A stretch of 64,000 bases of DNA from IMG/VR virus record IMGVR_UViG_3300008110_000023, positions 21,027 to 85,026 of that record. The stretch is one strand, 5' to 3'. The translations under genes and the position numbers were made by a program. The stretch comes from a virus. The notes beneath the pieces were generated by a model. That model had not been told where the DNA came from. It did no database searches and saw only the letters and a list, made by a program, of their open reading frames with translations. Shown here one piece after another: positions 1 to 64,000 of the stretch (the first letter of the stretch is position 1; the number at the start of each line of letters is the position of its first letter).

Positions 1-3000
1 ATTCAATCATTATCAGCGCTTAATTCAGCAGCTGAAGAAAACTTAGAAGGAGATGAGTTAATTGAATGGAATAACTATTATAATAGTATTACATCAGGAA
101 CTACTACTGAAGAAACAACTACTCCAAGTTCAGAAGATACTGCAACAAAAACTTTAAAAGATAACTTTAAAGCTGCTTTTGAAGAGTTTGATATTAATGT
201 ACAACAACAAACTCCTAAAGTTGAAAGAACTGATGATGAAAAATTAAGTGATAGAATACAAGCAGTTCTTGATTTACTTAAAGCTACTAAATTAAATACA
301 GCTACAGTTACTTTAGGACAAATAGTAGAAGAAGTAAACAAATTATTTGATAATGATATTGAGTATACTAAAAAGATATTCAATGACTTAAAGGATATTG
401 TAACTTTACTACAAAAAATGAGAAATAATCCTGAGTATACTTTAACTCCTAATTATACTTTATCTGATGCTGGTATTGTTGAAACAGGTATTACAATAGA
501 ACCTACTATACTCTCTGAAAAAACAAGTAGAGAAGCTAACGTAGAATTAATGTCTAGAGTAAGAGAAAATGATCCTACTCTTAACTTTATTATAGACGGT
601 AAAAAAATTGAAAGTATAGCATCTGTAGCCTCTAAAGCAATATCAGATGAAGGTACTGAAGTAGATGAAACCTTAGGAGTTTTTAGAACTATTTATAATG
701 AAGCTGGTGAATTAATATTTAATCCAAACCAGGACGCTATAGTAGATTCTAATTTTATTACTGAAGGAACTGTTATTACTATTAAAGTAGAAAAAGCTAC
801 AGGTAATATAGAAGAAGATGTTGATACTGCTGAAATAGCAATGTATGTTACTACTCCAGAAGGAGAAAGAAAAATAGGATATATACATTTACCTAGTTAT
901 GCAGGTGTACAAACATTAGCACAAGGAGAGTTATTACCATCTATACAAGAACAACTTACACTTATACAACAACTTAGAAGACAAGTATTAGAAAACCAAG
1001 ATTCTATTCTTACAACTACTGTAACTAAAAGAGGTTTTGGTAATGTAAATAAAAAAGGAAAAGATGCTAATGGTAATATACCAACATCTATCTTAAGTAA
1101 TGCTTTTGCTGGTGACACAAGAGTACATTTAGGTGTAGTAGGGCTTGTTGGTGAAAACAAGAAGATAAATAGAAATGATGAAAGTATTCCTTTATATCAA
1201 GCAACTGATTTAAAAGCAGGGGCATTAGTTATACTTTTACCACATCCAAGTGGAACTGTAGTACCTTACTATGCAATAAGCAATCCAATAGGAGCAGATA
1301 CTGGAGTTACTACTAAAGTAGTAAATACTTTAAAAGACTTCTTAGCACGTAAAATAGATAGAAAACAAACTACTATGGCTATTGAAAGATATGTCTATAC
1401 AGTTCCTGAAGGTAACATAGGCCGTAAAGGTATTGTTATAAAAGAACAAGATGGACAAAGATCTATTATAGTAGATGGTAAAGAAGTTAAAAATGATAAG
1501 AACTTTGCAGAGGTTATAGGTAGTGTATACTTTAACATGAATAAAAGTATCTTAAACTCTAAAGATGGACCTGCTTATGAGAAAGAGATAATGAATTCTA
1601 ACTTAGTGCGTACAGATGTACAAGCTAATCCTGTAACTTATACTAATGAAAGTGGTGAACAAGTAACTGAGAACTCTTATTTCCATCAAGTAACTACAGA
1701 GTTTAGTACTAACTTAAATAAAAGTGCTAAACCAAAAGTACAAACAGAAAGTACTGTATCTGATATAGAAAGAAGAAGACAAGGATTAAAAACTATAAAC
1801 GGCACTTTAAGAGTTGATTTAGGTGGATTTAGTATAGATAATGTATCTAAAGAATTTTATGACAATATACTTCATGCCACAGCAGATCCTTTTTATATAA
1901 ATTTAAAAAAATGGATTAATGAATTTAGAAAAACACAAAAACCATTTGCTGTTATAGATAGTTCTGAAATTATTAATAAATATAATGCAGAATTAGTTGC
2001 ATTAGAAGGTAAACCAGAAGAAACTGGTACTACTACTAAAGAAGAAGCAGAAAGACTTAAAGCTATAGAAGATGCTAAAGCATTTGGTTTTGAAGTAGAT
2101 GATGAATTAGAAGCAGATATTCCTACTATATTTGATACTCAGAATGATTTATCTGCAGAGCAAATAAGTATGATGAAGAATAATCCTACTACTCTATTAG
2201 TACATCCTGAGTTAAATGCAAGTACACAAAATGAAGCTGTATTAAGTATAGCTTATAAAGCATTAACTATAGAACCAGAGACTGAAGAAGTAGAAGGAAA
2301 AGAAGTATTAAAATCTACTAATAAAGAACTAGTTAAAGCTAACTTTATAGAAGGAGCAAGAGTACTTAACAACCTAGCAAAAACTAATCCTACTAATGCT
2401 ACTTATGCTAAAGCAGCTAAGACTATGTCTATAGTAGCAGGAGATGAAGTATTTGAAAAACTCTATGCAAAAGCAACTGAATTTATTAAAGAGATAGGAT
2501 TCTCTACTGAAGAAAGTGGTTTCTATAACCAAATGGAAGCTTTAGATGAAGTAGATGGAGAAGAAGAAAAGATAAATCAATTTATAGATGAAGCAGCTTC
2601 CTATGAAGATAGAAAGACTGGTGCATCTAAAAGATTTAAAAAATTCTTAGCTTTTATTCCAGCAATGGAACTAATAAAAGGAAAAGCAAAGGTATCTAGA
2701 AACTCTTTATTAATGCCTACTTTTAATAACTATGATAGTACTTTTACTATGATAGCTAATATACTTAGTGAGTATAACTACCCTAGTACTGCAGATGGTT
2801 TACAAATGATGATAAACAGACTGACTGCTACAGATATAAAGAATCCAGTTATAAAAGAAGTTGCTGCTAAGTTAGAAAAAGCCCCTCAAAAGATTAAAGT
2901 AGAGTTCTTTAACATCTTTAATCAACAACATGCTAAGTTTAAAACATTAAGACTATACTGGCAAAAAGCTAGAACTTTTAAATATTTCCACCAAGGAATA

Positions 3001-6000
3001 GGAGGAGAAGTAAAAACTAAATACGCTGAAAGATTAAAACCTACTTTAATTAACTCTGATAGAAATAAAGCACAAGAATTAGTAAGAGAAGAAATGCTTA
3101 CTAATTTTAAACAAAAAGGAGTTATTTTAAAAGCTGTTACTAATAAACTAGATAGAAAAACTAATAATACTACTTTAGAAGTTAACACTGAACACAATAA
3201 AGCTATTTATGATGCATTTGTTACTGCACTAAAAGATGATAGTAACTACCAAGTAGATAGTAGAGGTAAAGTAAATACATTATTTTTTACTGAGACTGGT
3301 TTTAAAACTATGTATGACTTACTTAGTAATACAGGTATTAGTATTTCAGAAAATGCATTTGAAGACTTTTTAAATAATCATATAACACAAGATGGTACAA
3401 GAGGTCATAAAGCTATTGCAGGTGAAGTTTTAGGAGTTATCCTAAAAAGTCTTGCTGGAGAAGGTACAGTTATTGATAGTGAAACTGTAGAAAATCCTTT
3501 TGAACTTAATAATCCTTTTTATACAGAAGGAAGTAGTATTAATATCTTAGCTAAGTATGAATACAATACAAGAACAGATGTATTTAGTTCTTCATTTAGA
3601 CATGCTGGTAAAAGTTTCTATACTTTTGTAAGACATACTCCTTTATCTGAATTAGTACTAAAGCTTAAAAATCCTTGGAGAGCTAATAAAAAAGAAAACA
3701 GTTTTATTAGAGGACTTATAACTAGAGATCCATTGTCTAAACATAGTCTGTGGTTAAACAAAATGGTTAATCCTACTAAAAAAGGAGATTCTGTTTTTGC
3801 AGATACATTTAATTTGTTCTATGAAAAAGGATATAGAGATAGTTCTGAAAAAGGATCTACTCCAAAAGACCTTAAGGATTCTATTGAAAAAGAACATGAA
3901 TTAAACAAAATAATTTCTTTCCAAGCACAAGGAAAAGACACTGTTGTATTCCATGCAGATACCCACTCAGATAAAACTACTAAAGCTTTTATACAAGCTA
4001 TTAAACAATCTGTTGATGGTTATACAGGAAATATAGAAGAAGGTATTCAATTATCTGATGATAGTTTAACTGATTTATATAGTTATTTCTTAGCAGAATA
4101 TGATAGGATATTACAAGTAAATGAACAAAATGAAGATCCTAATTTTCCTGCACATAAGAAATTAAAAGGATATCACGGTACTAAAGCAAAACCAGGTTTA
4201 GGAAGTGTATTTAATATGTACCATTTCTTAAACTATGCTGTATTAAAAGACACTAATGCAGATTTAGCAACAATGTTATTTGACTCTGAAGGTAATTTAA
4301 GAAATATACCTAAAGAAGATATGGCAGTAGTCTCTGGAATGGTTAAAGAAGAAATTAACAATAACTTTAATAGACTATTTAAAAAAGTAAAAGAAGACTG
4401 GAGTACTTTAGGTATATTCTTTACAGAAACTAACAAATTAGGGTATACTAGATTGAATATTAACTCCTACATGGATGCTAAATATTATGATAAAGTAGTA
4501 AACACACTTGGTATAGAAAATAAAGCTGTTAAGAAAGTAACAGAGAATTTTAATCAACCAGCAATAGATGCAGAAGTAGCAAAAATACTTGACTATGCTA
4601 TAGTTGATTATGTAGTTAACTACGCTATAGCTACTAATGAAATGCTTATTATAACAGGAGACCCTGCATTACATGGTAAACCTTCTAAAGATAAAGGTAG
4701 TATTAGTAGTAAAAATTGGGTATTAAAGTCTATTGCAGATACATTTATTAACGTAGGTAAACGTAATGCAAGATTACTGGCTTCTGGTAACAAAGGTATG
4801 TTTAGTAAACAAAAGTATAATGTTGCTTTTGTAAATGACATTGAAGAAGTTTCTGAACATGTAAGTGATTATGTATCATGGTTAAAAGAATTTGAACCTG
4901 ATTATATTAAAAAGAAATTTACTTCTAATATGACAGATGCCCAAGAGTTAACTACTGTTGAAGAGCATTTAGAAGTTATGCGTGCTTTTGGTAAAATAAC
5001 TGATAATCAATTTAAAACATTACTAGGTTTATATGATCCAGCTGCTTACAGAGATTTATACAAAGAAGAAGCTCCTGCATATACACAAAAGGAAGTATTA
5101 GAGAATTTAAAAACTGTAATGCAACCTATGAAACCTGTACAAGTACAAAGTGTATTGGACACTGATATTAAAGCTAATGTACAGTATTATATTAAAACAT
5201 CTTCATTCCCTATTATTCCTGCTTTAGTAAAAGGAAAACCTATGGAGTCTGTATTAAAACAAATGAAAGAAGCTAAAGTAGATAGACTTTCATTTGTATC
5301 TGCAGTTAAATTAGGAGAACATGGAGCTAAAAACTTATTTATAGAAGATAAACTTAATACAGAGTTATTTAAAGACAATGTAATTGAATTAGATAGAGAT
5401 GGTTTTAGTATACAGTTAGAAGTACCTTACAAAGAAAACAAAAAAGAAGTAAGAGAAGGTACCCAAAATATGAAACTATTGTTTATGGATTTACCTGATT
5501 CTTTAGAATTAGAATTATCTGAAGGAAACAAAACAGTAGAAGAAGCTAAAAGAGAATATAATAGAATTCATAAAGAAATCATAGATAGCGCTTTAACTAA
5601 GTTATTAGGAGACATAGGAGCAACTGTTACTGAAGATGAAGCAGGATTTAAATCTTATAAAATAAATGATTTTACTAATTTAAGTAAGATACTTAAAGAA
5701 GAAGGAGAATCTAGAGGATATTCAATTAACTCATTACTTGGTCTTGATTTAAATAAAGATGGTCAGTTTAAAATACCATTGACTTTTAACCCAAACTCTG
5801 CACAAATAGAACCTGTTATTACTGCATTATTAAGTAATAGATTAGTTAAACTTAAAATGCCAGGTAAATCCTATGTATTAGGATCTGAAGTTTTAACCTT
5901 AGAACCTTCAATAAATAAAGAAGGAAAACAGACTCAAGCAGATATTAATGTTATTAAAGATATTATATGGGTATCTGATAAATATAAAACACAAGGTAAA

Positions 6001-9000
6001 CTTAAATACTACAGAGAAGAAAACGGTAAACCAGCAATGGCACAAATTATCATGCCTGCTTATTTCTTAGATAAAGAAGGAAAGCAAATAGACATGACTA
6101 AGTTTGTAAAAAATGGTTTTTTAGATACTAGTAAAATAGATAAAGAACTATTACAAATAATGGGCTTTAGGATTCCTACACAAGGACATAACTCCATGAT
6201 GATGTTTGAAGTAGTAGGATTCTTACCTAAAACTAGTGGTGATTTAGTTATAGTTCCTGCAGAAATTGCTGCTCAAATGGGATCTGACTATGACGTAGAT
6301 AAATTATATACTTATCATTATAACTATTATGTAGGTTCAAAATCTGGTAAACTAAAAAAATACAGTAAACCAGGAAATATTAAAACAAAACAAAATAGAT
6401 TGCTTGAAATTCAATCAGCTATTATAATGAATAAAGAAGTAGCGCCTTATATTATGAATCCATTATCTATGGATGATTTAGCAGACGCTATTGTAGAATT
6501 AAATAAAGATAAAAAAGAAGAATGGATAGGTAACTATTCTACTTTATACCAAAGAAATACTTACTTTGATAATGCTGCTGGTAAAATTGGTGTAGGTATA
6601 TCTGCAAATGCTAATACTAATCACGCTGCTTTTCAACAGGCAGGTGTTTATGTTAAAGGAGGAGGCGTTGTATTCTTAAAACCTGACGGTACTCCATATA
6701 GTGATATTGAAAATAATGCTTATGAAAGTAATAGTGTTAGTAAATATAAAGAAGATAAATATACTTATCCTGATCCTTTTAGTGATGATATAATAGACAA
6801 TAAAAAAGATAACAATACTGCTTGGAGATTAGATAAAATATTTACTTTTGATGGTAAACGTATTTCTGATATTATATCTCAATGGCTAGGAGCTTCTGTG
6901 GATAATGCCAAAGAAAAACTACTAGGAGAAGGAGGTATTAATAAGTATAACTTTAATGTGTCTTTGTTAATAGCTAGAACTGGATTTGGTAATAATTGGA
7001 TTATACCTTTTATCAACCAACCTATCTTAAAAGAATATTATGCTATACTACAAAAACTAGAGGATAGTACTGAAAAGTCTTTTGAGGCAGGTAAAAAAGA
7101 AAAAGCAATAGAACAATTATTTAAAAAGTATACAGATTTATATAAAGTTGCAAATCCTAATGAAACTCCTGGAATACAAGGAGTAACATTACTTGAATTA
7201 AAAAGTTCTCTGAATAAGGAAATAAATGCAGATAATGCAGCAGCACAGTTAAATATATTAAAAGCTTTCTTACATTATGAAACTATTAGCTTAGAAGTAG
7301 GTACTGTACAAAAAGCATTAAATACTGATGTTAAGGGATTACCTAAAAATATAGCAGAAACTGCAGAAAAAAGAGATTTTATTAGTGAGCATGGGTATAA
7401 CTCTTCTGTATTAGGAAATGTAGGTAAAATAAGAGAAAAAGTAATATCAGGTGCTTTTATGGAAATACCTAGAATTGCTAGTCAATTATTTAATAGAAAA
7501 ACAGACGGTTCTTATGTATATGCTTATGATAGTTCTGCCTACAAATGGGTTAAAACAGGATTAGCACAAATAGCTAATAAAGAATTTAATACTGAACAAA
7601 TTAATTTAATACATAATAGTTTACAACAGTTTATTTATACTCACCCAGAATTAGGTTTATATGGGGATAATTATGAGGCAGAAAAACAAAGGTTATTATA
7701 CAATGAAAACCTAGCTGATAGATTATTGCAATTACAAGAGAAATACCCAAAAAACTATTTCTTAAGTAAAATAAGTGCTGTAATTGATACTAATGTTAAT
7801 AATCCTAAAAAGATTAAGATAATAAATACTACTGCAGAACAAAAGATCTTTATAGAGAGAATGCAACAAGAATGGGAATCTGCTTTTTATGCAGAACCAG
7901 AACTTGCCAGATTTGCAGAAGATATGGCTAAGTACACAATGATGTTTAATGCTAATCAATTTGGAGCTTCTAACTTAATAAAATACTTACCTTTTAACTA
8001 TCTTAACATTATAGGTGCAGGTAAAGTATTAAATGGTTTAGAATTAGAAGATTCTTTAAGTCTTATAAACTTTATACCACAATTCTTACAGCACAATCCA
8101 GAGTTTGCTCCTTTTGCTAAAGAAAGTAATTTCCTTGAAAATAGCGCAGTTTATAAAAAAGATGCTGATGGTAAAGATACTGATATTATAGAAGGATTTA
8201 AATTACCTAGTTTAGCTTTAGAATTTGATAAAAATGATGCACGTAATTTAATACAAATTATTAAAGTAGAAGGAGAAGAAATACCTGTATATCCAAGTTT
8301 CTTATCTGTATATGGAGGAGCTGAATTAGGAAGATTACTTTTTATAAAAGTAAATGAAGATTTTTATAGAAGAGTAGACACATTAGGAAATACTGATTTT
8401 ACTGAATATAACTTTAGTAAAAATGGTTTAGCTTCTACAATACTAGAAGAGCAAAAAGGTGTTGTAGATATTAACAAAAAAACAAATACTATAGAATCTA
8501 CTACAACTGATTTAGATCAACTTTATTTTACAACTTCAAGTGTTCATTCTTTACTAGAAAATATTGTTATTAGAAATACTTTTGCTACAGATCCTTTAGC
8601 AGAAGCTTATGGTGCCTTAGCAGAAAAACTACTAGAACAACCAGAAAATGGATATAGAGTAGTAGTTGATAATAGTATACCAGCAGTAGGAGCTCATAAT
8701 AGAGTAGAAAAATTAATTAAACTAAATAAAGAAGCTTTATTAAAAAATAATGAATTAGAAATACAACGTGTTATATTACATGAACTTATACACAAAGAAA
8801 CTGTAGCTAAATTAGTAGATAATAAATTCTTAGAAACAAAAGAAGGTCAAGCTATTACTAAAGTATTTAATAGTTTTAAAGAACAACTACAAAATAAAGC
8901 ATTATCTGATACTGAAAAAACTAGGGGTATTCCAAATGAATTCCTAGAAGCAGAAGTATTTAAGTTATTAACTGAGGCTAGTTTTGGAGAAAATAAAAAA

Positions 9001-12000
9001 GATTTAAATATACTATCTTTAAATAGAATTACTAATAGTGATATAAATAGTCCTGCTTTTAAAGAACTTATGAAGTCTTTATCTACTAATCTTGCTAAAG
9101 TAGATAAATTTAAAGCTAGTAGTAAATTAGAACCAGGTACTGAAAGATATGAAGCAGTTGCTAATTATATTAAAGATACTTTTACAGCAAATAATATTAA
9201 GGAATTAAAACCTAAATATTACATGTACACTAGTATTTTAGAGTTTGCTACTGAAGCTTTAACTAATACAAAGACTCAAGAGTATTTAAAAACATTTACT
9301 ACTATTAATCAAAAAGGAGAAAAAGTAAGTTTATGGAAACAGTTTATAGATGCTTTAACTACTTTACTTAAGTTTAATAATGTAAATAGAACATTAGCAG
9401 AAGATGCTATTGAAAGTATTATAGATGTAATTGATTATGGTAAACCAGCTGAGATAATTACTCCACCATCTATTAGTGTTAAAACTTTTGATAAAAAAAA
9501 TCTATTTAAAGTAACACCTATACAAACTGCTGACAAAAAAGCAACTATCAAAGCCAGTATAGCTACTCAATATATTGGTTTTGGTGAAGGCATTGCAGGA
9601 AGTTCTACAGAACTATATAGACAACAAGCTGGAGCTTTAGCTAATACAGGTAACTATTCTGTTAATGATGTAATATTTGTATCTGTTCCTGGTAGAAGAG
9701 GTACTGAAATACAACAAAAAACACAACAAGATAAAACTATTAAAGAAGCTATTAAAGCTGTAGAAGCTGGAGCTACAATCCTTACAGATAATAAAGCTTA
9801 TATTGATTCTAATTCTTATAACACAGGAGAAAAAAGACTTTATAATGCTATGAAAGAACAAGGTTATGACTATTCTGAAATTATAATTGACGGTCAACTT
9901 ATTGGTACTTGGAGTAAACCTACTCAACCAGTTACTGAAGTAGTAGAAACTAAAGAAGTTATAAATAAAATATCAACTCCTATATTAAGTAAAAAATTAG
10001 TATATACTGTATATAATCCTATTAGTGGAAAAAATCAAACTAAAAATGGTTATAAATTAACTATTCCTGAATTTCCAAATTTTGAAGGTTATATTACACA
10101 AGAAGAAATAACACAAGAAAGTAAAGAAGGAAAACCAGAACTTAATAAAAAAACAAAAGAATGGACTATAGAAATAGTACATCCAACTAAAGGAGTACTG
10201 AATTTTCCTGTAGGCTGGGCAAAAACTAAAAAAGAAGTTATAGATACTTTTGTTAATGATATTAATGAAAAACATTCTAAATCAGAAGAAGGTAAAAAAA
10301 TATTGCAAGAAATTGGTATTGATTTTATTGGCATACAACCACAAGTTGAAGTAAAAACAACAGAAGTTATATTAAAATACTATGGTGCTTATTACAAATA
10401 CAATATTGATAAAGATGGTAACCAAGTAGGAGCTTCTTTATATTCTCAAAATGGAGTAGATTATATAAGTACTTCTAGAGATTATGCTTCTATAATAGCA
10501 AGTAATAACTACACTAATGCAACTACTGGTGAAGTATTTGGTAAACCAAAAGAACCTGTAATAATACCTGAAGAAGAAGGAGATAATGCTAAATATGAAT
10601 TGTTTCCTGGAGTATTTGCCAATGAAGGACAGAAAGAAGCTTTAGATAAACTAGATTCTTTTATGGCATCTACAGGTAAAGATAATGAAGCCTTTGTATT
10701 AGTTGGAAGAGGAGGTACTGGTAAGACTACTATTATTAAAAAGATGATAGGTAAATTTCCAAATTTAAGAATAGGAGGAGCAACTGTATCACATGCAGCT
10801 AAAGATATCTTAGGAAATTCTATTGGAAAAGGAAATGCATTTACTTTAGCTAGTTTATTAGGAATAAAATTAGATGAAACTACAGGTAAATTTGAAATTG
10901 ATGGTTTTAGTAGAAGAACAAAAGGAATTCCTATTGAAAAATTAGACATTATTATAATTGATGAATGTTCTATGGTTTCTGATTTATTGTTTGAAGAATT
11001 ATTTAAATATAAAAAACCTAGTGCTAAAATTATCTTTATGGGAGATAATGTCCAATTAGCTCCTGTAGAACAAGAAACAGATTCTATTACTTTTAAAGCT
11101 AATAAAAACCCAAATAATTTTGCTAAGTTAACAGAACCTATGAGATTTAGTGCTGAAAATCCTATTTTTGCATTGTCTTATATAGTAGCAGATAACGTAG
11201 AAGCTCCTGAAAGTAAAGTATATACTATCCCACAATCAAGTAGAGTAACTACTTTAAAAGAAGATACTGGTATTATATTTACTAATAGTGAAGAAACTGC
11301 TTTATCTATGTTGGTAGAAGACATTAAACAAGAACTTGAAAAAGAAGTTCCTAATACAAAAGCAGTAAAAGCAGTTACTTTTAATAATGAATTAAATAAT
11401 GCTACACAATCTGTTAAAAATCTTAATCTTAAAATAAGACAAAAATTATGGGGAGAAGAAGCTAAAAATCAATTTAATATAAATGAACTTTTAACTGCTT
11501 ATTCTACTTTTGGAGGAGAAAATCCTGCCTTTTATAACTCAGAAAACCTTATAGTAAAAGAAGTGTCTGAAGTAAAAGATGTTGAATACAACATAGGTGT
11601 GTTTGATTTTAAATTTAAAACTGTTTATTTAACTTTACAAAAAAGTGATGGTACAATAGTAAGTAATATACCAACAGTTGCCAAAGAAGATTTAGAAAGA
11701 TACAATAAAGAAGTAAAGGCTTTAAAATCAAATCCTGATGGAAGAATAAAATCAATAGGTTTTAAATTATCTGAAGAATTAGCTAATTTACAATATGGCT
11801 ATGCTGTTACTTCTCATAAAGCACAAGGTAGTACTTATACTAATGTATATGTTTTTGAAGACAATATCTTAGGCAATAGTAATTTAAGTGCCCCAAAAGA
11901 TAAAAACAGAGCTTTATATACAGCTATTACTAGAGCTAGTAAAAAACTAGTATTAATGGGTAAGTTTAATATAAACAATGAGATGAATAATCTTAATGAT

Positions 12001-12063
12001 ATTGATATTTTCAGTACCTTTGATGATGAAACACTTGATAAACAAATAAAAGCTTGTGAATAA
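1..12063 (+). CDS. Giant virion RNA polymerase polyprotein (5' partial), fused to metalloprotease-like and SF1 helicase modules
   Basis: The reading frame is open from base 1 to the TAA at 12061-12063. The first ATG (418) is therefore probably internal and the gene starts outside the window; 4020 residues are visible. Counting from base 1, the DYDVD motif at residues 2096-2100 (6286-6300), inside a segment reading GSDYDVDKLY, matches the DxDxD magnesium-binding loop of crAss-like virion RNA polymerases (phi14:2 gp66 family). HELIH at 2927-2931 is an HExxH zinc-protease signature. Residues about 3540-4010 form an SF1 (RecD/Dda-like) helicase: Walker A GRGGTGKTT at 3569-3577, Walker B with DE at 3654-3655, MGDNVQLAP near 3680, SHKAQGS near 3938 and a TAITRA motif near 3974. 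In this family the protein is packaged in the capsid and injected to transcribe early genes. The polymerase call is strong; the roles of the protease and helicase parts are inferred. Confidence 0.88.
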   Translation: MQSLSALNSAAEENLEGDELIEWNNYYNSITSGTTTEETTTPSSEDTATKTLKDNFKAAFEEFDINVQQQTPKVERTDDEKLSDRIQAVLDLLKATKLNTATVTLGQIVEEVNKLFDNDIEYTKKIFNDLKDIVTLLQKMRNNPEYTLTPNYTLSDAGIVETGITIEPTILSEKTSREANVELMSRVRENDPTLNFIIDGKKIESIASVASKAISDEGTEVDETLGVFRTIYNEAGELIFNPNQDAIVDSNFITEGTVITIKVEKATGNIEEDVDTAEIAMYVTTPEGERKIGYIHLPSYAGVQTLAQGELLPSIQEQLTLIQQLRRQVLENQDSILTTTVTKRGFGNVNKKGKDANGNIPTSILSNAFAGDTRVHLGVVGLVGENKKINRNDESIPLYQATDLKAGALVILLPHPSGTVVPYYAISNPIGADTGVTTKVVNTLKDFLARKIDRKQTTMAIERYVYTVPEGNIGRKGIVIKEQDGQRSIIVDGKEVKNDKNFAEVIGSVYFNMNKSILNSKDGPAYEKEIMNSNLVRTDVQANPVTYTNESGEQVTENSYFHQVTTEFSTNLNKSAKPKVQTESTVSDIERRRQGLKTINGTLRVDLGGFSIDNVSKEFYDNILHATADPFYINLKKWINEFRKTQKPFAVIDSSEIINKYNAELVALEGKPEETGTTTKEEAERLKAIEDAKAFGFEVDDELEADIPTIFDTQNDLSAEQISMMKNNPTTLLVHPELNASTQNEAVLSIAYKALTIEPETEEVEGKEVLKSTNKELVKANFIEGARVLNNLAKTNPTNATYAKAAKTMSIVAGDEVFEKLYAKATEFIKEIGFSTEESGFYNQMEALDEVDGEEEKINQFIDEAASYEDRKTGASKRFKKFLAFIPAMELIKGKAKVSRNSLLMPTFNNYDSTFTMIANILSEYNYPSTADGLQMMINRLTATDIKNPVIKEVAAKLEKAPQKIKVEFFNIFNQQHAKFKTLRLYWQKARTFKYFHQGIGGEVKTKYAERLKPTLINSDRNKAQELVREEMLTNFKQKGVILKAVTNKLDRKTNNTTLEVNTEHNKAIYDAFVTALKDDSNYQVDSRGKVNTLFFTETGFKTMYDLLSNTGISISENAFEDFLNNHITQDGTRGHKAIAGEVLGVILKSLAGEGTVIDSETVENPFELNNPFYTEGSSINILAKYEYNTRTDVFSSSFRHAGKSFYTFVRHTPLSELVLKLKNPWRANKKENSFIRGLITRDPLSKHSLWLNKMVNPTKKGDSVFADTFNLFYEKGYRDSSEKGSTPKDLKDSIEKEHELNKIISFQAQGKDTVVFHADTHSDKTTKAFIQAIKQSVDGYTGNIEEGIQLSDDSLTDLYSYFLAEYDRILQVNEQNEDPNFPAHKKLKGYHGTKAKPGLGSVFNMYHFLNYAVLKDTNADLATMLFDSEGNLRNIPKEDMAVVSGMVKEEINNNFNRLFKKVKEDWSTLGIFFTETNKLGYTRLNINSYMDAKYYDKVVNTLGIENKAVKKVTENFNQPAIDAEVAKILDYAIVDYVVNYAIATNEMLIITGDPALHGKPSKDKGSISSKNWVLKSIADTFINVGKRNARLLASGNKGMFSKQKYNVAFVNDIEEVSEHVSDYVSWLKEFEPDYIKKKFTSNMTDAQELTTVEEHLEVMRAFGKITDNQFKTLLGLYDPAAYRDLYKEEAPAYTQKEVLENLKTVMQPMKPVQVQSVLDTDIKANVQYYIKTSSFPIIPALVKGKPMESVLKQMKEAKVDRLSFVSAVKLGEHGAKNLFIEDKLNTELFKDNVIELDRDGFSIQLEVPYKENKKEVREGTQNMKLLFMDLPDSLELELSEGNKTVEEAKREYNRIHKEIIDSALTKLLGDIGATVTEDEAGFKSYKINDFTNLSKILKEEGESRGYSINSLLGLDLNKDGQFKIPLTFNPNSAQIEPVITALLSNRLVKLKMPGKSYVLGSEVLTLEPSINKEGKQTQADINVIKDIIWVSDKYKTQGKLKYYREENGKPAMAQIIMPAYFLDKEGKQIDMTKFVKNGFLDTSKIDKELLQIMGFRIPTQGHNSMMMFEVVGFLPKTSGDLVIVPAEIAAQMGSDYDVDKLYTYHYNYYVGSKSGKLKKYSKPGNIKTKQNRLLEIQSAIIMNKEVAPYIMNPLSMDDLADAIVELNKDKKEEWIGNYSTLYQRNTYFDNAAGKIGVGISANANTNHAAFQQAGVYVKGGGVVFLKPDGTPYSDIENNAYESNSVSKYKEDKYTYPDPFSDDIIDNKKDNNTAWRLDKIFTFDGKRISDIISQWLGASVDNAKEKLLGEGGINKYNFNVSLLIARTGFGNNWIIPFINQPILKEYYAILQKLEDSTEKSFEAGKKEKAIEQLFKKYTDLYKVANPNETPGIQGVTLLELKSSLNKEINADNAAAQLNILKAFLHYETISLEVGTVQKALNTDVKGLPKNIAETAEKRDFISEHGYNSSVLGNVGKIREKVISGAFMEIPRIASQLFNRKTDGSYVYAYDSSAYKWVKTGLAQIANKEFNTEQINLIHNSLQQFIYTHPELGLYGDNYEAEKQRLLYNENLADRLLQLQEKYPKNYFLSKISAVIDTNVNNPKKIKIINTTAEQKIFIERMQQEWESAFYAEPELARFAEDMAKYTMMFNANQFGASNLIKYLPFNYLNIIGAGKVLNGLELEDSLSLINFIPQFLQHNPEFAPFAKESNFLENSAVYKKDADGKDTDIIEGFKLPSLALEFDKNDARNLIQIIKVEGEEIPVYPSFLSVYGGAELGRLLFIKVNEDFYRRVDTLGNTDFTEYNFSKNGLASTILEEQKGVVDINKKTNTIESTTTDLDQLYFTTSSVHSLLENIVIRNTFATDPLAEAYGALAEKLLEQPENGYRVVVDNSIPAVGAHNRVEKLIKLNKEALLKNNELEIQRVILHELIHKETVAKLVDNKFLETKEGQAITKVFNSFKEQLQNKALSDTEKTRGIPNEFLEAEVFKLLTEASFGENKKDLNILSLNRITNSDINSPAFKELMKSLSTNLAKVDKFKASSKLEPGTERYEAVANYIKDTFTANNIKELKPKYYMYTSILEFATEALTNTKTQEYLKTFTTINQKGEKVSLWKQFIDALTTLLKFNNVNRTLAEDAIESIIDVIDYGKPAEIITPPSISVKTFDKKNLFKVTPIQTADKKATIKASIATQYIGFGEGIAGSSTELYRQQAGALANTGNYSVNDVIFVSVPGRRGTEIQQKTQQDKTIKEAIKAVEAGATILTDNKAYIDSNSYNTGEKRLYNAMKEQGYDYSEIIIDGQLIGTWSKPTQPVTEVVETKEVINKISTPILSKKLVYTVYNPISGKNQTKNGYKLTIPEFPNFEGYITQEEITQESKEGKPELNKKTKEWTIEIVHPTKGVLNFPVGWAKTKKEVIDTFVNDINEKHSKSEEGKKILQEIGIDFIGIQPQVEVKTTEVILKYYGAYYKYNIDKDGNQVGASLYSQNGVDYISTSRDYASIIASNNYTNATTGEVFGKPKEPVIIPEEEGDNAKYELFPGVFANEGQKEALDKLDSFMASTGKDNEAFVLVGRGGTGKTTIIKKMIGKFPNLRIGGATVSHAAKDILGNSIGKGNAFTLASLLGIKLDETTGKFEIDGFSRRTKGIPIEKLDIIIIDECSMVSDLLFEELFKYKKPSAKIIFMGDNVQLAPVEQETDSITFKANKNPNNFAKLTEPMRFSAENPIFALSYIVADNVEAPESKVYTIPQSSRVTTLKEDTGIIFTNSEETALSMLVEDIKQELEKEVPNTKAVKAVTFNNELNNATQSVKNLNLKIRQKLWGEEAKNQFNINELLTAYSTFGGENPAFYNSENLIVKEVSEVKDVEYNIGVFDFKFKTVYLTLQKSDGTIVSNIPTVAKEDLERYNKEVKALKSNPDGRIKSIGFKLSEELANLQYGYAVTSHKAQGSTYTNVYVFEDNILGNSNLSAPKDKNRALYTAITRASKKLVLMGKFNINNEMNNLNDIDIFSTFDDETLDKQIKACE

Positions 12064-53098: not shown

Positions 53099-54550
53099 AT
53101 GCTAATATCAGAATTACAGATGTTTGAACCTAAGGATTTTTCTGGCCTAGTTACAGATAATCACTTAGGAGCTATGTACGCTACACAACCTATTGTAGTG
53201 TCAAATTTAATTGAACAAATTTACAAAGTTAACTTAGGAGAAGACTTATTGTCTTTTATGGACCAATTTTCTACTTTAGAAATTGATGATGATCTTCCTT
53301 TTGAGTGGTGGTTGCAAGGTGCTGAAAACAAAAACTATCCATTAGTATCAGCTACTTATACTGGTGTTAAACCAGGTATTGGTGTAACTAGATTTACATT
53401 AACTTTTGCTGAAAGAGCTTTTGAAGCTTCTGACGTTATAGTAGGTGAAGAAACTGAAACTTACTTTTTACGTGTTACTAAAGATCCAGAACCAAATGGT
53501 ACTAACTGGGATTTTGAAGTAGAATTAGTAACTGGTGATGTTAACTTGTTTATTCCAATTGAAGAACTTGCTGCTGGAAAAAGATTCTCTAAAGAGTATT
53601 CTTTAGTAGAACAAACTCTTTCTAAAAGAGGTGGAACTGTTTATCATACATCTCCTTTCAAAATGCAAAATACTTGTTCTTTTATCCGTAAGGAATATGA
53701 AGTACCAGGTAACATGATTAAAAAAGGTGTTAACAGACCATTGGCTTTTGCTTTCAAAGATGCTGCAGGTAAAACTCAAACTACTTGGATTAAAAAACTA
53801 GATTGGGATTTTATGAAAGAATTCCGTAGAGAAAAAGCTTTATTAGCTATGTACGGACAACCAAATAAAACTTCTCAAGGTACTTACTTGAATAAAGGTG
53901 AATCTGGATATGAGATCAGACAAGGTGCTGGTTTAATGGCACAAGTTGCTCCAGCTAACGTATACTACTACAATACTTTCTCTTTAGATTATTTATTTGA
54001 AGTATTAATGTCATTGTCAGTTGGTAAATTACCTGAAGATTCCCGTAAATTTGTACTAGGTACAGGTGAATATGGTTTTGTACAATTCCACAAAGCTGTA
54101 GATGCTAAAGGTGCTAACTTCTCTTACAACAACGCTGGTAACCGTATTACTGGAACTGGTGATAACCTAAGATTAGGAGGACAATTTAAGTCTTACGGTT
54201 TCTTAAATGGTATTGAAATTACCTTGATTAAAATACCTCATTTTGATGATATCACTAGGGAGAAAGCAATGCATCCAGAAGGTGGTACTGTAAAATCTAG
54301 AGAATATTTGATCATGGATTTTGGTACTCAATCAGGTGTTGATAACATTCAAAAAGTAGTTGTTAAAGGTGAAGCAGATATGTTCCGTTACCTACCAGGT
54401 TTAAGAGATCCATTCTCTGCTCAAGGTGGTTTAACTCCAGGTCTTACTGCATCTACTGTAGATGGTTACAAAGTAATGAAAGGCTCTATCATGGGTGTTA
54501 AAGTTCATAACCCAATGAGATTAGCTAGATTTATCCCAAACATTGGATAA
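53099..54550 (+). CDS. Major capsid protein
   Basis: 483 aa. Position after portal and scaffold-like genes, soluble alpha/beta layout and codon choice close to that of highly expressed genes (GGT, GCT, ACT) fit an HK97-fold capsid protein of crAss-like phages. The C-terminal part around LRDPFSAQGGLTPG and SIMGVKVHNPMRLARF looks like the P and A domain ends. Not proven by motif, but the gene order leaves little choice. Confidence 0.85.
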   Translation: MLISELQMFEPKDFSGLVTDNHLGAMYATQPIVVSNLIEQIYKVNLGEDLLSFMDQFSTLEIDDDLPFEWWLQGAENKNYPLVSATYTGVKPGIGVTRFTLTFAERAFEASDVIVGEETETYFLRVTKDPEPNGTNWDFEVELVTGDVNLFIPIEELAAGKRFSKEYSLVEQTLSKRGGTVYHTSPFKMQNTCSFIRKEYEVPGNMIKKGVNRPLAFAFKDAAGKTQTTWIKKLDWDFMKEFRREKALLAMYGQPNKTSQGTYLNKGESGYEIRQGAGLMAQVAPANVYYYNTFSLDYLFEVLMSLSVGKLPEDSRKFVLGTGEYGFVQFHKAVDAKGANFSYNNAGNRITGTGDNLRLGGQFKSYGFLNGIEITLIKIPHFDDITREKAMHPEGGTVKSREYLIMDFGTQSGVDNIQKVVVKGEADMFRYLPGLRDPFSAQGGLTPGLTASTVDGYKVMKGSIMGVKVHNPMRLARFIPNIG

Positions 54551-56209: not shown

Positions 56210-57463
56210 ATGCAAAAGAATAATAATATATTAAACTCAATTATAGCTGCAGCTGTTGCTAGAACTTCATCTGTACAAATTACAGAACCTACTGCAGCTA
56301 GTTATATTAAAGCTGGTGAAGTAGTTGCTACTGCATTAGATGGAACTGTACTTACTGCTACTACTGCTGCTTCTGCAACTGAACTAGTTTTAGTACAAGG
56401 TCAAGGTGCTGGTCTTCCTCTTATTAAATCAGCAGTTATTAAAAAAGCTAACGTAACTAAAGTTGCTTCTAAAGCTTATGCTGCTCCTCTTGAGCAAATT
56501 TCTTACTTTGGATACAATGGTTCTGCTGGAAACATTGACGCTATTAACTCTAATGAGTATGTATTGCGTGTAACTTTCCAAGAAGATACTAAAACTTTTG
56601 GAGATAAAATGAATACAATCATTGCTGATTATATCTCTGATTCTTCTACAACTGCTTCTGAAGTTGCTCTTGGTTTAGCTTCTAACATTAACAAATCTGC
56701 TTCTTTGTATGCTGATGTTCCTGTTAAAGCTGAAGTTATCACTGCTGGTGGTACTCCAACTACTTCTGCACAAGCTGTGTCTGTAGTTAATGGTTCTAAA
56801 ACTATTACTTATGCTGCTGCTCCAACTGGTGTTGCTATTGGTTCTTTAGTTTATTTAGCTGGTGCTACTTATTTAGTTACTAATTTAGTTGGCGCTGTTG
56901 CTACTTTAAATATGCCATTCCAAGGTGCTACTAACGCTGCTCTTGCTGCTGGTACTACTTATGCTTCTCAAAATGGTTACTTAGCTGCTACTCCTTCTAA
57001 CGTAGGTATTAAAATTACTGGTTTAGTAAGAAGATTTAGAGCTGGTGTTTGGGTTTATACTAAAGTAAGATTTGTATTAACTGCTAAAAATGCAGGTTCT
57101 ACTAACTTAACTAATGCTCAAGCTGCTTACAAAGGTATTGGAGATGGTAAAGAAGTTCAAGAAATTGAATGGGAAACTGTAGGAAATGAGGGTGCATTCT
57201 TGCGTACTCCTGCTCCAGGTTCTCCAGTTCCAGTATTAAGATTGAACTCTAAAGAGGCTTCAACTTATGGAATTTACAATATCCAATTCTTTGACCAAAA
57301 TGGTACAGGTGTAGTTGCTGCTCCAGTTCCTTCTTACAAACAATTAATCATTGCTGCTGAGAATGTTACTGCAGGTTCTGGTACTTATGCTGGTACTATT
57401 TCTGATGCAACTAATGGTCTTAGTGCAGTATTAAATGCTTTCTTAGGAACTGCTATTGCATAA
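56210..57463 (+). CDS. Abundant virion structural protein
   Basis: 417 aa, extremely rich in Ala, Thr, Val and Gly with beta-sandwich-like repeats, few charged residues and strong bias to GCT and ACT codons, which signals very high expression. It has its own terminator right after the stop (57483-57510). An auxiliary capsid, head-fibre or tail protein are candidates; which one cannot be told from sequence. Confidence 0.7.
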   Translation: MQKNNNILNSIIAAAVARTSSVQITEPTAASYIKAGEVVATALDGTVLTATTAASATELVLVQGQGAGLPLIKSAVIKKANVTKVASKAYAAPLEQISYFGYNGSAGNIDAINSNEYVLRVTFQEDTKTFGDKMNTIIADYISDSSTTASEVALGLASNINKSASLYADVPVKAEVITAGGTPTTSAQAVSVVNGSKTITYAAAPTGVAIGSLVYLAGATYLVTNLVGAVATLNMPFQGATNAALAAGTTYASQNGYLAATPSNVGIKITGLVRRFRAGVWVYTKVRFVLTAKNAGSTNLTNAQAAYKGIGDGKEVQEIEWETVGNEGAFLRTPAPGSPVPVLRLNSKEASTYGIYNIQFFDQNGTGVVAAPVPSYKQLIIAAENVTAGSGTYAGTISDATNGLSAVLNAFLGTAIA

Positions 57464-57542: not shown

Positions 57543-58115
57543 ATGGCATTACAACCTAACTTTACCCTTTGCTTAGACAAAGGTTGTTCTACGTTTACTT
57601 TTACGGATACAACGGGAACTTATGATGAAATTCTTAATCCAGGAGGCTATGGTGCTCCTAATGGAACTGTTGAAAATATAGTTAGTGCTTCTATATTATT
57701 TGAGTTTAATGGATTATCTATACAAAAAACATTTACTCTTAGTGACCCTCCAGTAATAGAAGACTTAACAGGTATTGAATTTACTGCAGAAGATTTAGGT
57801 ACTGAAATAGTAGATGGTATTTATACTTTAACTTATACAGTTGCATACTCAGGTTCTTTCTATACTAAAAAACAACAAATGTTTTTTGCATGTAATGCAG
57901 AATGTTGTGTATATAAAATGTCTACTAAAGTTACTTTAGAAGATTGTTCTTGTGAAAATCCCGCTTTAAATAACTTCTTAAATGCATATACTTATTTACA
58001 AGTATTAAAAAATGCAGCTAGAGCAGGTCAAAATACTAAATTTACTAATACATTAACTTTACTAAACAAACTATGTACAGCCTCTGGTTGTGGATGTGGT
58101 TGTGGTGGATGTTAA
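57543..58115 (+). CDS. Cysteine-tailed virion appendage protein
   Basis: 190 aa, beta-rich first half, then a helix (NNFLNAYTYLQVLKNAAR). It has Cys-rich places: NAECCVYK, EDCSCENP and the terminal SGCGCGCGGC. The Cys clusters may bind metal or form disulfides that tie appendages together; the next two genes start with related Cys motifs. Function in the virion is inferred from context. Confidence 0.65.
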   Translation: MALQPNFTLCLDKGCSTFTFTDTTGTYDEILNPGGYGAPNGTVENIVSASILFEFNGLSIQKTFTLSDPPVIEDLTGIEFTAEDLGTEIVDGIYTLTYTVAYSGSFYTKKQQMFFACNAECCVYKMSTKVTLEDCSCENPALNNFLNAYTYLQVLKNAARAGQNTKFTNTLTLLNKLCTASGCGCGCGGC

Positions 58116-58134
58116 TTAACAATATATAAAATAT

Positions 58135-58650
58135 ATGAGTTGTAATTGTGATGAAAATCCATTAATACTTCCTATTGGTCCTCAAGGTGAACAAGGCCCT
58201 GTTGGACCTACTGGACCTGCTGGCCCCATAGGACCACAAGGAATACAAGGACCTGCAGGAATAGTTGGAGGAACTTTAGAATACAGTTATAATTATGGAA
58301 ATATAGTAGGAAATGGAGAAGGAGATGCAAGTAATATAAATGTTGCTTATTTTAGATTTCCAGGTACAGTTAGTTTTGGTACTCCTTCTTCTGTAAAAGT
58401 AGTAGTATCTGGGGAAATGATCCCTCCAGATGATGTAAATATCATTGTAAGAGATGTTACTAATAATGTGATAGTAGCAGCTACATACGGTATTGTACCT
58501 TCATTTGCTCCTAGTGTAGTAAATGTTCCTATTATATCAGGTACTTTTTCTACCTCAGAAGTAGTATTTAGATTAGAATATTCTATTTCTAGTGGAAATC
58601 CTTACTTACCAAGTATTGCATACATTCACTCTTTAGATATAACAATATAA
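58135..58650 (+). CDS. Collagen-like tail appendage protein
   Basis: 171 aa. The N-terminus MSCNCDENPLILPIG is followed by about nine Gly-x-y triplets (GPQGEQGPVGPTGPAGPIG...) that form a collagen-type triple helix, then a beta-rich C-terminal domain of about 125 residues. Such proteins form trimeric fibres or spikes. The first 15 residues are shared with the next gene, so they are probably a docking tag. Confidence 0.75.
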   Translation: MSCNCDENPLILPIGPQGEQGPVGPTGPAGPIGPQGIQGPAGIVGGTLEYSYNYGNIVGNGEGDASNINVAYFRFPGTVSFGTPSSVKVVVSGEMIPPDDVNIIVRDVTNNVIVAATYGIVPSFAPSVVNVPIISGTFSTSEVVFRLEYSISSGNPYLPSIAYIHSLDITI

Positions 58651-58662
58651 TAAAAAATAATT

Positions 58663-59253
58663 ATGAGTTGTAGTTGTGATAATAATCCATTGATATTACC
58701 AGTAGGTGCTACTGGACCACAAGGCCCTAAAGGAGATCCAGGTTTTGGATTTGAACATTATATAGGAGAAGAATTTGGTGGTGGAGTAGTATTTCATGTA
58801 TATAGAGACAGTGATGGTACTGAACATGGTTTAATAATTAGTATAGAAGATCAATCAATTTCTAAAGTACAATATAGTAATATAGTAAGTACTTCTATAG
58901 GAATTTCTGCATTAGAAAGTAAATGGAATGGGACAGAAAATACTAACTTAATGAAAACTCAAAGTGGGGCTATTGACGGAGCCTGGAAGCTTTGTGATGA
59001 CTACAGTAATGACGGCTTTTCAGATTGGTATTTGCCAAGTGTAACTGAAATGGCTTTAATATATCAAAATAGATTTAATATATATAAAACATTTTCAAAT
59101 ATAACAGGCGCTGATTTTATTCAAGATGAATATTATTGGACAAGTACAGAAAGAAGTAGCACAAATGCAAATACTTTTGAATTTACTACAGGTTTTGCAG
59201 GTAATACATCAAAAGGAAGTACTTATTATGTAAGAGCAATACGTAAATTTTAA
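58663..59253 (+). CDS. Tail fibre protein with DUF1566/Lcl-type head
   Basis: 196 aa. MSCSCDNNPLILPVG docking tag, a short collagen stretch (GPQGPKGDPG), then a lectin-like DUF1566/Lcl C-terminal domain: IGEEFGGGVVFHVYRD, GAWKLCDDYSNDG, WYLPSVTEM and YWTSTE, ending VRAIRKF. Likely a receptor-binding tip. It is a paralog of 59987-60598 but keeps an A-rich sequence in the last segment. Confidence 0.8.
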   Translation: MSCSCDNNPLILPVGATGPQGPKGDPGFGFEHYIGEEFGGGVVFHVYRDSDGTEHGLIISIEDQSISKVQYSNIVSTSIGISALESKWNGTENTNLMKTQSGAIDGAWKLCDDYSNDGFSDWYLPSVTEMALIYQNRFNIYKTFSNITGADFIQDEYYWTSTERSSTNANTFEFTTGFAGNTSKGSTYYVRAIRKF

Positions 59254-59986: not shown

Positions 59987-60598
59987 ATGGCAAATAAAAA
60001 GATATCAGAATTAACAACTTTTACAACTGCTTTAGGTACAGACCAAATTCCAGTAAATAGATCTGGAATGAATGGTAAATTAGCTTTAAGTAGTTTAAGT
60101 AGTTTAAGTACTACTCATTATATTGGTGAGTTTTTTGGCGGAGGAGTTGTTTTTCATGTATACAAAGATAGTTTAGGAGTTGAACATGGACTAATTGTGA
60201 GTATTGTTAACTTAGCAAATGCACAATATAGTAATATAGTTAATCTTGTTTCTAGTGCAACTAGTACTTGGAATGGACAAGGAAATACTAATTTATTAAA
60301 AGCACAATCTGGGGCTACTTCAGGGGCTTGGAAACTTTGTGATGATTATAGCAATGGAGGTTTTACAGACTGGTATTTACCAAGTGTAGATGAGTGGAAT
60401 TTATTATGGAATAATAGATTTAATGTAAATAAAACTTTAACAAATATTGTAGGAGCTGCACAAATAGGATATGATACATATTGGAGTAGTTCTGAAGGAA
60501 ACATTGTCAGTGCCTATGTTTTCTATGCTAATCTTGGGTCTGCTAGCAGCCTTTCTAAGTCTACTGCTTACTCTGTACGTGCAATAAGACAATTTTAA
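59987..60598 (+). CDS. Fibre protein with DUF1566/Lcl head and candidate DGR variable region
   Basis: 203 aa. N-terminal module KKISELTTFTTALGTDQIPV (docking, shared with the next gene), then the lectin-like DUF1566/Lcl domain: IGEFFGGGVVFHVYKD, GAWKLCDDYSNGG, WYLPSVDEW, YWSSSE, ending VRAIRQF. Such C-terminal folds are frequent targets of diversity-generating retroelements. The last 29 codons (60497-60583) are depleted of A and raised in GC compared with the paralog at 58663-59253. Likely receptor-binding. Confidence 0.8.
   Translation: MANKKISELTTFTTALGTDQIPVNRSGMNGKLALSSLSSLSTTHYIGEFFGGGVVFHVYKDSLGVEHGLIVSIVNLANAQYSNIVNLVSSATSTWNGQGNTNLLKAQSGATSGAWKLCDDYSNGGFTDWYLPSVDEWNLLWNNRFNVNKTLTNIVGAAQIGYDTYWSSSEGNIVSAYVFYANLGSASSLSKSTAYSVRAIRQF
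60497..60583 (+). other. Candidate DGR variable repeat
   Basis: In 87 bases I count 17 A (20%) and 38 G+C (44%), against an A-rich, GC-poor surrounding. It codes from GNIVSAYVFYANLG to VRA at the end of a DUF1566/Lcl fold, the usual place of retroelement variable regions. No template repeat or reverse transcriptase is visible in the window. Confidence 0.5.
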
Positions 60599-60612
60599 TA
60601 TATATATATAAA

Positions 60613-62580
60613 ATGGCAGATAAAAAAATATCCCAATTAACAAGTTTAGCACCCGCTTTAAACACAGATGAATTACCTATTAATAGAAGTAATGCATCTG
60701 GTAAATTAACTGTAGCTGATATATTAAGTCCTGAAGCTACTATTAGAGCTGCTAAAGACGGTGATTTAACTACACTTAATACTACTGATAAATCAAATTT
60801 AGTAAGTGCTATTAATGAAGTAAATACTGGATTAGCAAGTAAAGTCCCTTCTTCTTATTTAGATACAGATACTACTTTAGCTGCTAATTCTGATAGTAAA
60901 ATTGCTACACAAAAAGCTACTAAAGCTTATGTATTAGCTAATGTAACTCCTTCAGCTACGGAAACTGTACAAGGTAAAGCAGAGATAGCTACACAAGCAG
61001 AAACTAATACTGGTACAGATGATACTAGATTTGTTACTCCTTTAAAGTTAAAAACTAATTTAGATAGTAAAGGATATTTAACTGGAACTGGTACTGCTAA
61101 TGCTTTTCCTAGATATACTGCAGGAACTACTTTAGGAACTTCAGCTATTGCACAATCTGCAGCAGGTAATAGAATATTAGTTAATGGAGTTACTGATGAT
61201 CTTGGCACTGCACTACAAGTAAGTGGGTCTATAAGACAAACTGCAATAACTTCTGTTTTAGGAGCAGTAGATTCTAATGGTAAAATAGTAAGTGGAGGTT
61301 CTGGTACTAGTGGGCGTATACCTGTATTTTATGGTAGTACTTCTTTTTTAGCTAATTCTCTTATAAGAGATGATAGTTCTACTGTTTCTATAGGAGTAGC
61401 AACTGACGCTGGTTCTAAATTATATGTTCCAACTTCAGATACTACTACTAGCATTAGAAGTAGTAATTCTTCTCTTTTTCCTGCTACTACTTATAGTCTT
61501 GTTGGTAATACTTCAGGAACTAAAGCAGGATCAAATATAGGAGTTTATGGAATTGCATCAGGATCTACTATTAGCAATATTGCAATGTATGGTGACTCTT
61601 CTGGTGCTACATCTCCTCTTAATATAGGAGGTTGGTTTTCTGCAACAGGGGGTACTACTAATTATTCATTACAATTAACTGATGGTACTCAAGCTACAGG
61701 TAAGTTTTTAAAATCAATTACATCAGATGGTAAAGCTAACTGGGCAAATATTACTACTGCTGATATTACTTCTGGATTTGCTGGGGCCGCATTAAATAAT
61801 GTACCTAGGTATGGAACTCTTACTACTTTTTCACCTTCTACTATTTATGATAATGGAAGTAATACAGGTATAGGAAATGCTCCTTTATCAAATTCTAAGT
61901 TATTTGTAGCTACTAGTAGTGTTAATATTTACACTATAAATGCTAGTAATAGTACTGCCACTGGTATTACTTATGCATTAATTGGTAATACTTCAGGTGC
62001 AAAATCTTCTCAAAATGTAGGAGCAGCAGGTTATGCTTTAAATTCCACTACTGAGAATACAGGAGTACTTGGAAGTGCAGTAATTGCTACTACTGGTAAA
62101 AATGTTGGAGGATCTTTTTTAGCTGCTCTTGGAGCAACTAACTATGCAGTACAATTAAAAGATGGTACTGAGGCTGCTGGAAAAGTATTACAATGTATGG
62201 ATTCCAATGGTTATGCTAATTGGGGATTTGATTATAATGGTCAAACTATTTTAGTTAACACAACATTTACTAATGAGCCTATAAGTATTAATTTTAATTT
62301 AGGTAATTACGTAGTATTAGATTATTCTTCTACAATTGCTACAGCAACTAGTGTTAATGCAGTTTCTTTTAGTAATATGAAACAAGGTAGAATATATAAA
62401 ATAAAAGTTAAACAAGGGCCTAGTCCTGCTGGTGAAACTTATACTCCTACATTTGCTGGTATGAAATGGCCTGGAGGAACAGCTTTTACTCCAACAACTG
62501 GAACAGGTAAAATTGACTTTATTGAAGTATGGTATGATGGAATTGCTTACTATGGAGATTTCATTAAAAACTATGTATAA
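60613..62580 (+). CDS. Long tail fibre protein with two internal repeats
   Basis: 655 aa. N-terminal docking module KKISQLTSLAPALNTDELPI matches that of the previous gene. Two tandem repeats of about 112 aa follow: residues 267-378 and 427-538, each with SKL(Y/F)V, then NTSG(T/A)K, NVGG/NIGG and LKDGT/LTDGT then a xANW end. The C-terminus (GETYTPTFAGMKWPGG, then FIEVWYDGIAYYG) resembles phage fibre tips. Probably a trimeric fibre. Confidence 0.8.
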   Translation: MADKKISQLTSLAPALNTDELPINRSNASGKLTVADILSPEATIRAAKDGDLTTLNTTDKSNLVSAINEVNTGLASKVPSSYLDTDTTLAANSDSKIATQKATKAYVLANVTPSATETVQGKAEIATQAETNTGTDDTRFVTPLKLKTNLDSKGYLTGTGTANAFPRYTAGTTLGTSAIAQSAAGNRILVNGVTDDLGTALQVSGSIRQTAITSVLGAVDSNGKIVSGGSGTSGRIPVFYGSTSFLANSLIRDDSSTVSIGVATDAGSKLYVPTSDTTTSIRSSNSSLFPATTYSLVGNTSGTKAGSNIGVYGIASGSTISNIAMYGDSSGATSPLNIGGWFSATGGTTNYSLQLTDGTQATGKFLKSITSDGKANWANITTADITSGFAGAALNNVPRYGTLTTFSPSTIYDNGSNTGIGNAPLSNSKLFVATSSVNIYTINASNSTATGITYALIGNTSGAKSSQNVGAAGYALNSTTENTGVLGSAVIATTGKNVGGSFLAALGATNYAVQLKDGTEAAGKVLQCMDSNGYANWGFDYNGQTILVNTTFTNEPISINFNLGNYVVLDYSSTIATATSVNAVSFSNMKQGRIYKIKVKQGPSPAGETYTPTFAGMKWPGGTAFTPTTGTGKIDFIEVWYDGIAYYGDFIKNYV

Positions 62581-63442: not shown

Positions 63443-64000
63443 ATGGCAGTAAGATTTGCAGTTTCTTCAACAGCTTGGAATACTCCTTCTACTTGGGATA
63501 ACGGAGCAGTACCTGTTCCTGGAGATACAGTTTACCCAAATGGATTTACAGTTACTATTGATACAGATATTGATGTTGCATCATTAAATACTAATGTCAG
63601 TCCTGTTTATTTGCCTAATATGAATATTCCTGCTATGACAGGTAATACTCAACCCAGTGGAATAGTTGATTCAAGTGGTTATGCAATTAGTTATCCTCCA
63701 TATCAAGTATTTGACCAAAATTCAGGTACAAGTTATGGAAGTAATACTAATAATACCTGTTGGATTACTTATGAATATCCATCTGCAAGATTGATAAAAA
63801 GATATTATTTAAGGTCTATTGTCGTTGGTGGATATGGTCAGCCATCTGCTTGGATTTTTGAAGGTTGGAATGGTAGTTCATGGGATCCTTTAGAAATGAA
63901 AACAGGTATGGGAACATCTACTACAACAGGTTATTTAAGTCCTGTTTTAACTCATACAACTCTTTATTCTAAATATAGATTAAATGTTACAGCAGGTAGT
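63443..64000 (+). CDS. Tail fibre/spike protein with discoidin-like domain (3' partial)
   Basis: The frame runs from ATG 63443 (MAVRFAVSSTAWNTPSTWDN) to the window end without a stop, at least 186 codons. Residues about 95-180 (SARLIKRYYLRSI, PSAWIFEGWNGSSWDPLE, YSKYRLNV) read like an F5/8 type C (discoidin) carbohydrate-binding domain. It is probably a receptor-binding appendage that continues to the right. Confidence 0.7.
   Translation, partial: MAVRFAVSSTAWNTPSTWDNGAVPVPGDTVYPNGFTVTIDTDIDVASLNTNVSPVYLPNMNIPAMTGNTQPSGIVDSSGYAISYPPYQVFDQNSGTSYGSNTNNTCWITYEYPSARLIKRYYLRSIVVGGYGQPSAWIFEGWNGSSWDPLEMKTGMGTSTTTGYLSPVLTHTTLYSKYRLNVTAGS

Follow-up and report, generated by a model that had tools for sequence, protein, structure and literature searches.

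Among the described systems that resemble the locus analyzed here, Bacteroides phage F2 (MT806186; B. uniformis phages, PMC8143477) also carries a DUF1566-type DGR target, with the variable region (VR) placed at the end of the gene. Its VR and template lie beside an annotated Avd gene and a reverse transcriptase (RT); the template is located 704 bases downstream of the VR, differs from it over 50 bases by 12 mismatches at A and 0 at non-A positions, and reads AAC or AAT where codons of the GSARSLTKAT motif vary, with AAY becoming NNY in the VR. Within the crAss-like phages, crAssphage LMMB possesses both RT and template, and incomplete cassettes or only some of the DGR elements were reported in 66 of 91 genomes or fragments of AlphacrAssvirinae genus I, which means that phages of this type are already known to carry VR-type targets lacking a full DGR (PMC7290462). 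In Epsilon crAss-like phages, the RT is fragmented or deleted and the VR-bearing receptor-binding protein has been retained, in a genus that includes members with complete cassettes; the myDGR program also misses divergent crAss RTs that have a GxxxSP motif (PMC11054128). RT-less VR-like sites have been described in Nanoarchaeota, where the authors read them as fossils or remote targets (PMC4372165), and remote targets were outside the reach of a large metagenome survey (PMC8144416).

The window (the whole stretch of DNA analyzed here, 64,000 nucleotides) comprises bases 21027-85026 of an 85,026-base IMG/VR record. The ends of the record are identical over 114 bases, which is most simply explained by a complete circular genome of ca. 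84.9 kb, and it is on this terminal overlap that the completeness of the record rests. The major capsid protein, the terminase (phrog_6681), and the portal (phrog_6547) all assign the phage to the crAss-like phages (Crassvirales), as are its closest GenBank relatives, with a capsid identity of ca. 35%. Two fragments from other metagenomes, L029 (99% identical, metagenome 3300033571) and L030 (96.5%, 3300032239), come from this phage or from one very close to it and span only genes of the terminase-end, portal, and capsid region. The right edge of the window falls within a gene (63443 onward), which runs on into the first 1470 bases of the record. Window positions 1-12063 form a single open frame of 4020 codons or more; such a length would suit the giant virion RNA polymerase proteins that crAss-like phages encode, for which the frame is a candidate. 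The features used below are the following.

53099..54550, plus strand: major capsid protein (PF23898 Crass_capsid, E value of 8.2e-120), which puts the phage among the crAss-like phages
58663..59253, plus strand: paralogous Lcl_C head with a collagen-like start and without VR signature (Pfam E value of 3e-10, 40.9 bits, above the gathering score; 55% identity)
59987..60598, plus strand: small fibre or receptor-binding gene of 203 amino acids, with an N-terminal docking part and an Lcl_C/DUF1566 C-type-lectin-like head
59987..60112, plus strand: docking part, residues 1-42 (MANKKISEL...); homology to L034-L036 begins only at residue 43/44
60113..60598, plus strand: lectin head module, common by homology search to otherwise unrelated phages
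60497..60574, plus strand: VR-like segment, candidate orphan DGR variable region, A-poor and with NNY codons
60575..60589, plus strand: GTACGTGCAATAAGA (VRAIR), the place where the initiation-of-mutagenic-homing site would sit
60613..62580, plus strand: neighbouring tail-fibre protein (phrog_972, tail fiber), whose docking start (MADKKISQL...) is akin to that of the 59987-60598 gene
63887..64000, plus strand: right copy of the perfect 114-base terminal direct repeat, the left copy being record positions 1-114, outside the window

The product of the 59987-60598 gene matches Pfam Lcl_C (PF07603) with an E value of 6.8e-8 and 33.2 bits, just below the gathering score of 34.9. Its best solved fold is the C-terminal domain of Legionella Lcl (8q4e; E value of 1.5e-7, TM score of 0.75 normalized by target length), as found with an AlphaFold2 model that has a pLDDT of 69 overall and of 82 to 94 across most of residues 131-203, and sequence profiles agree with this assignment. 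By both profile and fold, the protein thus contains an Lcl_C/DUF1566 domain and has the type of ligand-binding fold (C-type lectin or similar) expected of a DGR target. In Legionella Lcl, a collagen-like part is joined to the head, as is also the case in the window paralog; Lcl binds host glycosaminoglycans (PMC11162425). The target in LMMB has been described as a tail-collar fibre protein of 486 aa and of the CLec3 class, which sets it apart from the 203-aa Lcl_C gene of the window.

The sequence-only reading had proposed the adenine-depleted end of this gene, at 60497-60583, as a DGR variable region. Its base counts were exact: these 87 bases hold 17 A and 38 G+C (44% G+C), while A makes up 35.5% of the remainder of the gene and 36.5% of the record. 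In the plus-strand structural region, only 0.5% of the 87-base windows have 17 A or fewer, and 0.08% combine this with 38 or more G+C. The proposed start holds, but the anomalous block is best bounded at 60497-60574 instead of running on to 60583. In these 78 bases there are 15 A, and 23 of the 26 codons have C or T as their last base, with 7 of 26 (27%) ending in C, compared with 6% of codons genome-wide; counted from 60500, the values are 23/25 and 7/25, where 16 structural ORFs give 53% and 7%. As had also been pointed out, the equivalent place in the 58663-59253 paralog is A-rich, with 31 A in 78 bases and a single C-ending codon in 26.

When the amino acids were held fixed and codons were sampled from the usage of the phage itself, 7 C-ending codons (P = 0.002), 23 pyrimidine-ending codons (P = 0.004), and 15 or fewer A (P = 0.002) were each rare, and the joint log-likelihood of codon choice in the segment gave a P value of 4e-5. 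Rare synonymous codons contribute to the segment, namely, AGC twice, GTC, GCC, and GGG. A synonymous z-score of ca. -5 is also reached by a few other windows among the ORFs tested, so this score by itself is not unique to the segment, and the stretch at 56774-56924 is equally A-poor without an excess of C-ending codons, which makes the A count insufficient as an argument by itself. However, across the 22,622 windows of 26 codons in the 56 kept ORFs of the whole genome, the segment is the sole place with at least 7 C-ending codons and at most 16 A. The strength of the signal lies in the combination of these measures and in the position of the segment.

That position is the one occupied by the VR in phage F2, and the segment aligns to the F2 VR nearly free of gaps, with GSASSLSKST of the window falling on GSARSLTKAT of F2 (a GSAxSLxKxT-like motif). 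A profile-guided search recovered 80 viral relatives of the head, and a second search gave 39 hits, many of them overlapping with the first. About 10 relatives have clear VR codons, with 42 to 65% ending in C, compared with 2 to 7% over the remaining gene; signature-bearing relatives include L037 (twice), L038, L043, L067, L125, and L130, and more weakly L127, L128, and L131. The window segment stands at the weak end of this group, and several relatives are intermediate between clear VR and non-VR groups, so that composition by itself does not cleanly separate the two. The alignment of the segment to the L043 VR is gap-free, with the GGG, AAG, TTC, and CGT codons co-placed. L037 is a 7-kb contig with tandem lectin heads (1486-1962 and 2072-2644), both with VR-type codons.

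Among the relatives themselves, L043 and L067 are 96% identical upstream of the VR (14 differences in 393 bases), while 29 of the 78 VR bases differ, with 15, 12, and 2 differences at codon positions 1, 2, and 3. The target genes of L127 and L128 are near-identical, yet a comparison of L127 positions 1069-1118 with L128 positions 6528-6577 shows 6 of 12 bases differing at the 3' end of the VR, beside a conserved GTGCGTGCTGT; this is what would be expected from a short retrohoming tract and suggests a recent VR change. Both pairs carry the marks of mutagenic retrohoming. The closest homologs of the window head, L034-L036 (52 to 59% identical), are signature-free, and their loop varies strongly with normal codon use. 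Immediately after the VR, the window carries GCAATAAGACAATTT, as in these signature-free homologs, where the signature-bearing relatives share GTGCGTGCTGT. At the candidate IMH/IMH* position, the window has GTACGTGCAAT in place of GTGCGTGCTGT, and no template repeat was found to set beside it.

An RVT_1 search of the whole 85,026-base record, with stops read through, gave no candidate even at an E value of 10 or less, in a setting in which the RT of crAssphage LMMB was recovered at 3e-19. No template/variable repeat pair was found in the record by targeted or all-against-all scans on both strands, the latter looking for 50-base pairs that differ almost only at A and recovering the F2 pair as a control. 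The genome therefore lacks a detectable DGR-type RT and any near-copy of the segment, as the sequence-only reading had stated for the window; its suggestion that they could reside elsewhere in the genome is excluded by the terminal overlap and these null scans. Phage F2 has template, Avd gene, and RT and LMMB has RT and template, whereas the window genome is devoid of all of them. The codon signature of A mutagenesis is present, but establishing the direction of change needs a template, so A-directed change is not demonstrable at any base of the segment. In public collections, searched with exact degenerate patterns only, patterns allowing the VR base or A gave just poly-A matches in IMG/VR, a codon-anchored pattern matched nothing in IMG/VR and nothing among 84,980 species genomes, and a template pattern predicted from L038, L043, and L067 had none in IMG/VR. 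The target protein had no relative in the species genomes, the DNA-level search of phages and plasmids returned chance matches only, and the target gene did not turn up in a copy from any other strain.

The surroundings of the head differ strongly between phages. In the stretches compared, L034-L036 share the head with the window and none of the terminase, portal, or capsid genes, and L038, L043, and L067 share ca. 500 bases at ca. 90% DNA identity within largely different genomes. A second circular genome, G013 (L043-L046; 61,130 bases, with ends overlapping by 240 bases with one mismatch and bridged by L046), has, on both sides of its head gene, direct repeats of 97 bases that consist of docking-part sequence and are 92% identical; in the window, the gene after the 59987-60598 gene opens with the docking start again, and starts like MANKKISEL are also found in L008 and L009. 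Such docking repeats would permit head swaps by homologous recombination, and from these comparisons, the lectin head is a module that moves between unrelated phages. The VR signature of G013 is strong, and scans of this genome for an RT and for a template found neither. Four contigs, each from a different metagenome and 99.97 to 100% identical elsewhere, all carry this VR unchanged, and an unchanging VR is the expected look of a frozen one.

We consider it probable that a DGR acted on the segment at some stage, and our best account, to which we give an even chance, is that it is now an orphan VR of DGR origin, frozen and carried on a fibre head that can be exchanged. What stands of the original proposal is that fold, position, and codon signature are like those of genuine VRs; what does not stand is an operating DGR of this phage. 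An orphan VR is favored by a genome-unique signature exactly at the VR position of the same fold, by the gap-free register with the VRs of relatives, by the close correspondence to the F2 VR and template, and by the VR-type hypervariation among relatives, with circular G013 as a precedent for the frozen case. The null RT and template scans of a complete genome, with their positive controls, and the head-only homology to otherwise unrelated phages also speak for it. Against it are the signature-free state of the closest head homologs, a C-ending excess (27%) weaker than that of clear VRs (50 to 65%), a presumed homing-site sequence unlike that of signature-bearing relatives and like that of signature-free ones, and the lack of a template repeat by which A-directed change could be demonstrated. 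Retention of a VR-bearing receptor-binding protein after RT loss is known from the Epsilon phages, although their genus includes complete-cassette members and none is known for the window lineage; the Nanoarchaeota sites are likewise VR traces without RT, but in cellular genomes and in unrelated target proteins. The lectin head would then be a receptor-binding module passed among Bacteroidetes-type phages by recombination, and adenine-directed retrohoming, in which AAY codons of a template give rise to NNY, may have rewritten its ligand-binding loop while the head was still in an ancestor or donor. The variable loop would have arrived, or been kept, together with the head, leaving the crAss-like phage with one frozen product, without RT or template, in which diversification has presumably stopped and the loop would at present evolve by ordinary mutation.

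The same segment could have arisen by ordinary evolution and never have been touched by a DGR, either through diversifying selection for small or polar residues or through recombination from a phage of somewhat higher G+C content. The strong loop variation of L034-L036 with normal codon use, their similar VRAIR end, the other genome windows that attain a similar synonymous z-score, and the relatives intermediate between VR and non-VR groups all fit this, but selection on amino acids leaves the rare synonymous codons unexplained, and chance is unlikely to have placed them just at the VR position, so we regard it as an unlikely origin that still carries some weight. Action in trans, in which a host or co-resident element would supply RT and template to a phage that holds only the target, seems to us rather improbable. 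It would account for the absence of an RT from all of the ca. 10 distinct signature-bearing contigs, including circular G013 and L127 (more than 10 kb past the VR), and for VR ends that differ between L127 and L128 with no RT seen in either record; nor was an RT found in any of the records of 100 relatives. However, most relatives are fragments beyond which an RT may lie, the exact degenerate patterns met no template-like match in the 84,980 species genomes or IMG/VR, and the G013 VR is unchanged across four metagenomes. Hypermutated loci can break assemblies, and a cis-acting DGR might in principle have been overlooked in this way. It might also have escaped profile searches, as the GxxxSP RTs escape myDGR (PMC11054128). 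Yet the 114 identical bases at the record ends and the null RVT_1 and repeat scans, with the LMMB and F2 controls positive, rule it out on this assembly, and we hold it to be highly improbable.

Incomplete DGR cassettes in crAss-like phages have already been published, so the novelty of the window case is modest; the more interesting by-product is the group of RT-less, signature-bearing phages. It is a long shot that this Bacteroidetes-type group, the window phage included, holds only DGR targets that are diversified in trans by the RT and template of a host or partner, but if true, the receptor-binding heads that phages exchange would have a mutator in common. If the head module ferries diversified loops among phages, the community that benefits from DGRs may extend beyond their owners. 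The codon test needs no template, and it would make the footprint of retroelement mutagenesis recognizable in a complete phage genome without the element.

Upstream and within the fibre region, other arrangements were observed. The adjacent genes at 58135-58650 and 58663-59253 have in common an MSC-C-D-NPLILP start and collagen-like Gly-X-Y stretches, followed by differing heads, and this start represents a second docking type besides MA(N/D)KKIS. Upstream of the fibre genes, 57543-58115 codes for a 190-aa protein with a Cys/Gly-rich C-terminal tail (CTASGCGCGCGGC).
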